From the NCBI GenBank assembly GCA_947561715.1, contig OX387202.1:18923001-18987000 (forward strand): DNA of 64,000 bases, read 5' to 3'. How positions within the stretch are numbered: the stretch's first letter is position 1; each line of letters opens with the position of its first letter. Origin of the DNA: Ascidia mentula. Its lineage: Eukaryota; Chordata; Ascidiacea; Phlebobranchia; Ascidiidae. Below the pieces are notes generated by a model. That model saw nothing but the letters and a program-made list of their open reading frames with translations. It was not told the DNA's origin and made no database searches. Shown piece after piece: positions 50,201-53,200 of the stretch. A program made the translations under genes and the position numbers.

Positions 50201-53200
50201 AGTATTGACCCTTGCTTTAAAGTTTAACATCTGCTGAGGAATAGTAAAACTTTACAACATAGCCTTCAATTTTACAAAGTATTTCACATATAAGCAATGT
50301 GGAGCCAATAATATGAATTTGTGTATAAGCTGCAGACAGATGGCCACTGTTTCGACCTAAAAGGTCTCATCAGTGCAGCTGGTGTGATTATCAGACGACT
50401 TTGCTGACCAAACGGCCAAGCAAAGACTTCCACTTTGTGGTGACTATACAGTCACCGTCATCCGTTGGGCACCAAACTAGGTGCAACCTTACGGAGCAAA
50501 CAAGGTGGAAACACTACGGCCAAGCAAGCTCAACCAATAGTGCCGTCAGGCCCCGTGTCACAATAATCATATGATAAGCAATGTGGAGCCAATAATATGA
50601 ATTTGTGTATAAGCGCCATCTGTCTGCAGCTGTATGATTATTGTGACACGGGGCCTGACGGTACTATTGGTTGAGCTTGCTTGGCCGTAGTGTTTCCACC
50701 TTGTTTGCTCCGTAAGGTTGCACCTAGTTTGGTGCCCAACGGATGACGGTGACTGTATAGTCACCACAAAGTGGAAGTCTTTGCTTGGCCGTTTGGTCAG
50801 CAAAGTCGTCTGATAGTCACACCAGCTGCACTAATGAGACCTTTTAGGTCAAAACAGTGGCCATCTGTCTGCAGCTTATACACAAATATTTCACATATGT
50901 TGCAACATAAAGTTACGCACCAGTGAATGTAACATTGAACGCAGGATACCCTGGTATATCATCCTGATAAAATAACACAATGGACTGGCCTGTGGATGCC
51001 AATACAGATTGAACAGATACTTCATCAGTTCCCGTCAAAAACAAGGTTGGGTTTATCCCATTTGAAACCTCCAAAAAGTATAATGGTGTTAGTTTTCGTC
51101 TGGTTGAGTATTCAGTTTTATTTACATTACTGCAAGGTTAGCATCAATAAATAGTTGGAATATATACAGCAGTGTTTAAACATGCAACAAAGACGCTATT
51201 GAATATTACACATAAAAGGCTTACTGTTAACATCTAATCAATGTATAAAAAGAAACCCATTTAAAATTGTTCATAACATGTTGTGTATTTAATACATCTA
51301 TTGGCATTGTCTTTGGCACAATATGCCGAGATTGCTCTTGCGTAAACTTGCAGGTAGAAATAATAAGAATTAAGAGGTGAAAAAAACTGAATAAAAACTA
51401 AACTTTCTGCATATTTTTTACCTGCAGAAAACCAATCCCAGGAGTGGAAAGTGACGGAATCTGCATTCGTGCCCCACCATACAAGTATGGTGAGGTGACT
51501 GGCCAGGTACAAAACAGTTGAGGAGAAACATCTCCAGTATCTCCAATAGATGGGGTTGTGATCGTTCTGACCTCATCCTGCTCCAGTGGCACATTTTCAA
51601 AGCAGGCTGTATTTATATCATCTGCAAAAAGAAAACTAATTTATGTTGATGGACAACCTGACTTTTTGACATCAAACTTTCCAGTTTTGGGGTGCTTGGT
51701 GCAGACTTGTCAAGGGATGGTAAATTATTTTACCTTGTATAATGAATATTTCATTTGGTTCTATTTTTATAATAGTATTTTAATAAGATAAACAAGATTT
51801 TGCCAAACAATGGGCATTTTTGGCAGCTGTGGAAAGAAACCACATAAAGCTGATAGTTTCAATGGTTTACTACTTACACTCAGCAACGTAGATTTTTGCA
51901 GAGGAAAAACTGGTAGGAGTTCGGCAGTTAAAGAAACCCTTTCTTCCAAACGATCCAGTAAAGGAATTAAAGAAGACAGTTCCACCAAAAGAATTTGACA
52001 ACACACCGTCTACATAAAACTGGACAAACAAAGATAAAATATATCGTGTTAATTGAATACATATTTTAACAGAAAAAAACTAGTTTACGTCGCACTCCAA
52101 AGATGGTACTGGAGGGAGAAGACCCAAAACAAAGTACACATCCTGGCTGTGAGTGAAGTAAAATTGTCTTGTCGGGCAATTGGCGTCATAAGAAAAGACA
52201 ACTCTGGTAAAGTGGCTGTCAGTCCGACAGTCTGGATCTAGAAGAAACAGCATACATAAGTTATTTCATGATAGGATGTTTGTAGCAGTTTTTAGCAATA
52301 AATGATGCTATTCATGCTTCAAAACAGGGCTGTGGCAATACACATTACTACCAAGTTGAATTATGTCTCCCATTATTAATAAGATTTTCAGACAGAATAC
52401 CAGCTCTTGGTATTCTGTCGACACTGTATTGAGCCAATGATATGGTTTAAGGAAGTGCTTCCATTTTGGAAAACCAGCCAGTACTTAAATTTTATTTTTT
52501 AACTTAAGAGAGAAACTAAACGAATAAGAATACTTAAAAGAATTCATTTACTTTAAAAAAGGGTTTATCAACCACTGGTCAGCGCTAATTTTTGTACCAA
52601 CCACCACCCAAAATATATATTTTTTTGTCATAGAATGGATTTCTTTCAAAGAAAATTTTTCTCTCTTTTTACATGTTTTTTTATTAACATTATTATTACA
52701 TTTTAGTTTAGATTCTCTTAGGTTTTGATATTTTACTGGTCCAGCTGGTGCAAAAAGGTTGGGTGCCACTGGCTTAGAATATGAAACAGTAAAAACCTGT
52801 TGAAACTGTGAAATTGAGAGCATTTGAGGAAGAAGGTGATCCTGATGTTAGAAATTGCATGTGCACCTCCATTCCAAGCAGTCTATTTGAAGATATTGCC
52901 CCCGGCCCGTCAACTGGCAATTGAGACAGCAAATCTGTAAATGCCTGTTAACACATTAACACGGTTAAACATATCATAGGATTGTTAACACCTCTTCTCA
53001 TGAGGGTGTTTGAGGCTTTTCGTTATATTGTGGCCACTCCACAAGTTTAACTTTTTGTTGTTAATTTAAACTCAGGTTCTTAATCACAATCCAATGTTAA
53101 CTTTTGTTTTCGTGCAGGATTTTATGCTTGTTTGCTTGAAAATATTAATGTAAAAACATCTCAGCAAAGTTACCAACAACAAGCCTAAAAATTCTAATGC

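Follow-up and report, generated by a model that had tools for sequence, protein, structure and literature searches.

Head-to-head copies of a 284-bp hammerhead retrozyme in Ascidia mentula share their arrangement with resident Penelope-like elements

The window analyzed here, a 64-kb stretch (64,000 nucleotides) of the ascidian Ascidia mentula (assembly GCA_947561715.1, contig OX387202.1, positions 18,923,001 to 18,987,000), contains a hammerhead ribozyme (HHR) that is part of one copy of a non-coding 284-bp retrozyme. In the mitochondrial COX1 of this genome, AGR codons occupy sites where glycine is conserved, the ascidian pattern, as judged by eye. Most of the retrozyme copies that we examined are head-to-head pairs of arrays flanked by a short target-site duplication, with a tail at one end only, and Penelope-like elements (PLEs) resident in the same genome are arranged in the same way. 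The architecture of the copies, their ends, their duplications and target motif, the template variants shared between arms, and the arrangement common to the resident PLEs are all directly observed. We think it likely that this is a non-autonomous ascidian retrozyme, the circular RNA of which is copied by enzymes of the resident PLEs with priming from both ends of one staggered break.

RESULTS

An intact hammerhead ribozyme within a head-to-head insertion

The hammerhead is at 50328-50380 on the minus strand and reads AGCTGCA-CTGATGA-GACCTtttAGGTC-GAA-ACAG(TGGCCAT)CTGT-C/TGCAGCT, in which the slash marks the predicted cut between 50335 and 50334, with 50334 being the first nucleotide 3' of the cut. 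It has the CTGANGA, GAAA, and NUH core of a type I hammerhead with GTC as the triplet, is open at stem I, and has stems I, II, and III of 7, 5, and 4 bp, counting the A15.1-U16.1 pair in the last of these. A motif finder that requires a closed stem III, the core, and 4 bp or more in each of stems I and II reports this as the sole site in the window and none in 30 mononucleotide shuffles. In the 195.8-Mb genome, the core plus stem II pattern has 1,852 exact matches (923 + 929), and the half comprising stem III, the triplet, and stem I has 1,458 (763 + 695); the reversed control of each has none. The original prediction of a complete type I hammerhead with this core, these stems, and this cut is thus confirmed by the sequence, by the finder with its shuffles, and by the genome-wide repeats.

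The Rfam models count against this assignment. A scan of the window gives nothing at gathering scores, and at relaxed thresholds the site has only 20.5 bits with Hammerhead_3 (cut-off 48.5) and 20.7 bits with RAGATH-1 (cut-off 56.3); a search of the whole genome with RF00163 gives no match, and neither does its positive control. The original prediction had itself named the lack of a hit to a hammerhead model as grounds for its rejection, and there is formally no Rfam match above the gathering threshold. We judge, however, that this failure is outweighed by the repeat evidence.

The insertion carrying the hammerhead (50292-50886) is 595 bp long and head-to-head, with a 12-bp duplication. Positions in the unit are numbered m1 to m284 starting at the predicted cut, with the copy in the window as the reference, and the insertion is organized as follows:

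50280..50291, no strand: left target-site duplication, TATTTCACATAT
50292..50614, minus strand: left arm, 323 nt, antisense on the plus strand, from m43 (long end) back to m5 via one full 284-nt turn
50328..50380, minus strand: intact type I HHR, predicted cut 50335/50334 (from sequence, and finder with shuffle control)
50615..50632, plus strand: junction between the arms, 17 nt of sense strand (m275-m7) plus 1 nt
50633..50886, plus strand: right arm, 254 nt, sense on the plus strand, from m48 to m17 (short end)
50824..50876, plus strand: decayed hammerhead of the right arm, CTAATGA and AAAA for GAAA (from sequence and finder)
50887..50898, no strand: right target-site duplication, TATTTCACATAT, then GTT

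In the core of the right-arm hammerhead, G is replaced by A at both 50833 and 50851, and the insertion therefore holds only one intact HHR. There is no frame of at least 110 amino acids in the 595 bp, and the reverse transcriptase and GIY-YIG reading frame of an autonomous PLE is absent. The original prediction did not extend to the inverted arm, the copy number, the 284-bp repeat, or the target-site duplication.

The retrozyme family and its target

Using 301 bases around the motif as the query, we characterized the 40 best-scoring copies of 2,190 candidates, and these 40 give 142 matches. The unit is 284 to 285 bp, is repeated in tandem, has a GC content of 47%, and lacks a coding frame, as is characteristic of retrozymes without long terminal repeats (LTRs). 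Thirty-five of these 40 copies are head-to-head, with the antisense array on the left, the sense array on the right, and the 3' ends pointing outward; four have a single orientation (L010, L015, L033, and L046), and L020 is complex. The flanks of 34 of the 40 carry an exact duplication of 9 bp or more, compared with 14 of 774 when flanks are mismatched, and the duplications are 12 bp long in 18 of the 34 and 13 bp in 8, with a mode of 12 bp. The bases outside the duplications, read outward, are GTT in 26 of 68 flanks, with 1.25 expected, and the insertion target is a palindrome, AAC/N12/GTT. Such a staggered cut would leave two 12-nt 3' overhangs, either of which could prime synthesis of complementary DNA (cDNA), and two priming 3' overhangs would account for the antisense-left, sense-right order. 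Two loci found outside this set, L064 and L065, are 29 kb apart and have the same duplication and near flanks; this insertion was probably copied by segmental duplication.

Two start sites, one at each end

Thirty-two of the 34 copies with a duplication are head-to-head. Both ends could be classified in 31 of these, and all 31 pair an end at m12-19 with one at m38-49; L024, with an odd left end at m266, is set aside from this count. One short and one long end in 31 of 31 copies has a probability of about 5e-10 if the site were freely chosen at each end; of the 32 head-to-head copies, 15 have their long end on the left. The offset between the two ends is 23 to 33 nt (mean, 29) in all 31, which is close to the published tail length of PLEs and fits a PLE-mobilized insertion with a tail of about 30 to 40 bp arising from two start sites. 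The arm at the long end is the longer in 23 of the 31 (L009 to L048) and the shorter in 7, with 1 tie (sign test, 0.005), a hint that the long site is primed first and that the start sites are used in order.

The same rule is kept in five of five further independent copies (L061, L064, L078, L082, and L083), another family included. These come from 21 further loci giving six rows with a duplication and both end distances, one of which (L065) repeats L064; only one end is measurable in L067, L068, L072, and L080, the remaining loci gave none, and we discounted a further L078 row (279 and 225 nt), taking it for a chance repeat. A second insertion in the window also obeys the rule, for a total of 37 head-to-head insertions (31 + 5 + 1) in which a tail is present at one end and one end only:

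9642..9713, no strand: second head-to-head insertion of the 284-bp retrozyme, 72 bp, with ends at m44 and about m14
9629..9641 and 9714..9726, no strand: 13-bp duplication ATATAAACTATTT around the 72-bp insertion

A probable single template for each insertion

Divergence is 0.50% between passes within one arm and 0.56% between the two arms of one insertion, compared with 1.86% between different insertions. Matched arms average 0.54% versus 1.69% for shuffled partners, and none of 5,000 shuffles is as low. Counted per insertion, every pass carries the variant in 89 cases, a single pass does in 57, and some passes do in 6. The cut site is crossed by 62 of the 64 arms and 37 of the 64 are longer than one unit; a linear unit cut by the HHR cannot yield such arms, but a circle can. 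Together, these patterns suggest that the template was probably one RNA per insertion, and a circle. The putative 284-nt circle is predicted to be strongly structured, with a folding energy of -92.6 kcal/mol (z = -4.1 relative to mononucleotide shuffles).

Resident Penelope-like elements

There are 121 matches to GIY-YIG in the genome, 19 of which are inside open frames of at least 700 amino acids (counted from the list of matches). We refer to the elements as PLEs on the basis of the endonuclease, frame length, HHR, and arrangement, rather than on the reverse transcriptase domain. Neighboring GIY-YIG matches less than 6 kb apart are oriented -+ in 17 instances, ++ in 5, -- in 1, and +- in none. 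We examined 12 distinct head-to-head PLE loci (L051, L054, L059, L061 to L063, and L084 to L089), and in 11 of the 12 there are duplications of 12 to 15 bp, counted without a chance control; none was found at L051. Each of the 11 has extra sequence at one end only, and these tails are 32 to 40 nt in nine loci, 61 nt in L085, and 23 nt in L086. Twelve of 22 PLE flanks start with G, as scored by eye. Minimal hammerheads with a two-pair stem III, the type described for PLEs (in part of PMC7761336), are present in all 12 loci, and shuffles of three PLE loci give none in 972,120 strand-bases.

Head-to-head arms within a duplication are thus common to the retrozymes and the resident GIY-YIG elements. 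The suggestion in the original prediction that the hammerhead relates to PLEs and retrozymes is supported. Unlike the retrozymes, two of the 12 PLE loci (L061 and L089) form near-perfect palindromes, and the center of the L061 palindrome has hairpin-like sequence. We note also that a second-family retrozyme (L061:7160-7446) is about 400 bp from a head-to-head PLE (L061:1927-6753) with two 737-amino-acid frames, and that at L050 and L057 a degenerate retrozyme HHR adjoins a PLE. It is possible that target regions are common to the two kinds of element.

Ribozyme conservation and dimer folding

The HHR is conserved across diverged retrozyme families: 25 HHRs of 18 further loci are 85 to 100% identical to the window HHR, whereas identity in other parts falls to 33%. 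A 25-nt piece of the HHR core served to select these loci, among which L065 duplicates L064; L076 is too short, and L071 was left out. In the young copies, core divergence is 0.30% versus 1.64% elsewhere, but other windows of the unit are equally low and we do not count this as proof. Loop III is palindromic in most copies of the two main families (TGGCCA; GTGTATACAC or GTGTACAC) and therefore fits a dimeric ribozyme; amphibian retrozyme HHRs, with a weak stem III, are described as working better as dimers (in part of PMC7229834). As a monomer, the window HHR has a hammerhead fold of -16.0 kcal/mol, compared with the predicted minimum of -17.4, and its dimer is predicted to form a double hammerhead at -47.7 kcal/mol, versus 2 x -17.4. 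The predicted dimer minimum leaves the core open in 13 of 22 HHR rows, and when loop III of the window HHR is shuffled the core is open in 261 of 500 cases, with 19 of the 500 matching the energy gain. The folding predictions thus lend moderate support to a dimeric hammerhead.

The host gene

The insertion is probably in an intron of a gene with fn3 repeats, because it is flanked by minus-strand frames of that gene. Pfam fn3 matches are present in 4 of 10 frames scanned, including 49249-49626 and 48366-48716 on the minus strand, and further minus-strand open frames are located upstream of the insertion at 50913-51137 and on to about 54.9 kb (judged by eye), although six of these were scanned and have no Pfam matches. 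The HHR is, as originally predicted, in the sense direction of its host gene, which has fibronectin III exons; the intronic location that was also predicted is likely from the position of the ribozyme between these frames, but is deduced rather than directly established. Transcription of the host gene reaches the inverted arm (50887-50633) before the ribozyme arm, and the two are 98% complementary. The insertion transcript is predicted to fold as a single 255-bp hairpin (-534 kcal/mol) in which the HHR is buried.

Other features of the window

Two more retrozyme-related segments are present in the window, the first of which, a decayed copy of the second family, was searched for a duplication and none was found. 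On the minus strand at 60248-63783 are exons of a DNMT3-like methyltransferase with PWWP and ADD matches; its catalytic motifs were judged by eye, and the two frames that hold them have no Pfam match.

14074..14239, no strand: decayed copy of the second retrozyme family, 83 to 86% identical to parts of L061:7188-7448, with inverted parts too
15725..15826, no strand: strongly diverged retrozyme-like fragment, 78%
27385..27837, plus strand: helix-loop-helix transcription factor (Pfam HLH)
60248..63783, minus strand: exons of the DNMT3-like methyltransferase

DISCUSSION

We propose that tandem retrozyme copies would be transcribed and that their hammerheads would cut the RNA into 284-nt units, probably as dimers through the palindromic stem III, with a host ligase presumably closing the units into circles, as in published animal retrozymes. 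A PLE protein with reverse transcriptase and GIY-YIG endonuclease would cut the palindromic AAC/N12/GTT target with a 12-nt stagger, and both 3' overhangs would prime on a single circular RNA, each DNA end using its own site, with about 29 nt between the two. Each enzyme would roll round the circle for a random length, and the two cDNAs would be joined through a few nucleotides of microhomology or a short filler. The expected outcome would be head-to-head arrays inside a 12- to 13-bp duplication with a tail at exactly one end. The junctions between the arms have overlaps of 1 to 7 nt in 21 of 32 copies, no overlap in 4, and fillers of 2 to 27 nt in 7. Cleavage, circularity, the order of the steps, and the identity of the enzymes are what we infer in this scheme. 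More tentatively, PLEs and retrozymes could share one mode of integration, a mode that we did not find described: a complex with two heads would cut the palindrome with a 12-nt stagger, and both overhangs would prime on one circle, each from a start site of its own some 29 nt from the other, and roll round it. We regard this as an open possibility, somewhat short of an even chance. If true, a shared mechanism would account for the tails and inverted pseudo-LTRs of PLEs, for tandem copies, for hammerhead conservation, and for how animal retrozymes move.

The rest of the scheme would be unchanged if the template were a linear multimeric transcript of an existing array, as uncut RNA suffices for arms that cross the cut site, and in part of the work on the Anolis PLE protein, unprocessed RNA was used in vitro and HHR mutants left insertion unchanged (PMC11167929). 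A uniform parental array could also give uniform arms when copied as a linear multimer. However, the 89 variants in all passes far outnumber the 6 in some, more than half of the arms (37 of 64) exceed one unit, and without a circle arrays would tend to shorten in every generation, such that we consider a linear template unlikely, if still worth bearing in mind. Head-to-head arms might otherwise form by snap-back self-priming, in which one primed cDNA folds back and copies itself without a second primed end. This was proposed for palindromic junctions of rotifer PLEs (Arkhipova et al. 2013, PMC3846280, in part), and the near-perfect palindromes at L061 and L089 speak for it. With a long loop, snap-back is geometrically possible in 20 of the 31 retrozyme copies, and would allow the long-end arm to be mostly the longer one (23 of 31), but synthesis would need to end, every time, about 29 nt before the first end. 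The snap-back copy, moreover, can be no longer than its template minus the end offset, a limit that is broken by 11 of the 31, and the short-end arm is the longer one in 7. Also against it is the in vitro extension of both target strands by the Anolis PLE protein (PMC11167929, in part). If the loop were tight, the cDNA 5' ends should meet closely, but they are within 10 nt in only 1 of 32 copies versus 2.4 expected, and the mean distance of the meeting points is 60 nt versus 71 nt at random (permutation, 0.11). Tight snap-back is thus unlikely for the retrozyme and long-loop snap-back is not a general rule, although it may be used occasionally; as the explanation for the family as a whole, we find snap-back distinctly improbable.

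Twin priming of the type used by long interspersed nuclear elements (LINEs) also gives inverted head-to-head parts, and it is conceivable that LINEs rather than PLEs mobilize the retrozyme. We consider this very unlikely, given that both start sites are fixed about 29 nt apart, like a PLE tail, and that the same arrangement is seen in the resident GIY-YIG elements. There is similarly little to commend the view that the window hammerhead is an active intronic ribozyme whose cutting of the intron regulates the host gene. In its favor, this is an intact HHR in sense with the fn3 gene, but it is one intact copy of a ribozyme that is probably dimeric, and one of many dispersed copies. Self-cutting of the host intron, which the original prediction had raised, is unlikely and is not supported for this copy, because the inverted arm that is made first is predicted to bury the HHR in the -534 kcal/mol hairpin and because the second HHR is mutated. 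The window copy is probably a dead insertion that has no effect on splicing.

Several observations weigh against PLE-driven copying of a circular retrozyme RNA as we have described it. Choosing the best 40 of 2,190 copies over-represents young ones, six of the 40 lack an exact duplication of at least 9 bp, L020 is rearranged, and the left end of L024 does not fit. L011 may contain two templates, as one pass in its left arm carries a 16-nt deletion (m225-m240) absent from every other pass. Variation is low, and only 14 of 26 arms have their partner as the closest arm; by arm length the two ends are unequal partners. The fit of the snap-back geometry to 20 copies and the ability of a uniform array to mimic a circle belong here too. 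Among the PLEs, the 61-nt and 23-nt tails of L085 and L086 are outside the range of the others, the duplications have no chance control, and two of the 12 loci are near-perfect palindromes. Comparison of the retrozyme with PLE loci L049 to L063 reveals no similarity beyond nearby retrozyme copies or fragments, and without a shared end sequence no PLE family can therefore be named as the helper.

The ascidian retrozyme is similar to metazoan non-LTR retrozymes in being a non-coding tandem unit within the range of 170 to 400 nt, with a type I HHR, a GC content below 50%, high copy number, duplications of more than 4 bp, and a weak stem III that favors dimers (Cervera and de la Pena 2020, PMC7229834, in part). 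It departs from those described there in its head-to-head copies, strict two-site end rule, and palindromic target, and the words "inverted" and "head-to-head" are absent from the main text of that paper. The head-to-head arrangement, the HHR, and a 30- to 40-bp tail at one end are shared with PLEs that have pseudo-LTRs (PMC3846280 and PMC11167929, each in part), for which cutting and extension of both target strands in vitro and two adjacent internal start sites are also described (in part of PMC11167929). Unlike PLEs, the window element has no protein frame, has an HHR with a fuller stem III, and has an end offset of 23 to 33 nt; the duplications are also mostly 12 to 13 bp, compared with 8 to 10 bp in rotifer PLEs (PMC3846280, in part). 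Plant LTR retrozymes are likewise non-autonomous retroelements with HHR-driven circular RNA (Cervera et al. 2016, PMC4918200, in part), a circle that is presumed here, but they differ in having LTRs and type III HHRs and in being thought to use Gypsy elements (PMC7229834, in part).

Animal retrozymes, PLE hammerheads and tails, and inverted PLE copies are already known, and an ascidian genome paper lists nine type I hammerhead loci (PMC8704543, in part). In the literature searched, which covered few subscription papers, we found no report of head-to-head retrozymes, of a rule of two ends and two sites, or of proof of a helper. A 2020 review describes animal retrozymes as having no motif that reveals a helper element (PMC7761336, in part), and PLEs have been called no more than a strong candidate (PMC7229834, in part). 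The 37 insertions reported here bear on this question, as they carry a mark of PLEs, the one-end tail of a head-to-head pair, that is common to the resident PLEs. In vitro, two adjacent internal start sites of the Anolis PLE protein bound the tail, and no difference in start site was seen between the strands; the words "circular" and "retrozyme" are absent from that paper (PMC11167929). The different start sites at the two ends of one insertion go beyond that work. Finally, the role of the minimal hammerheads in PLEs has been called a mystery (PMC7761336, in part), and it now becomes a testable statement, namely, that they would make the circle that is copied from both ends.
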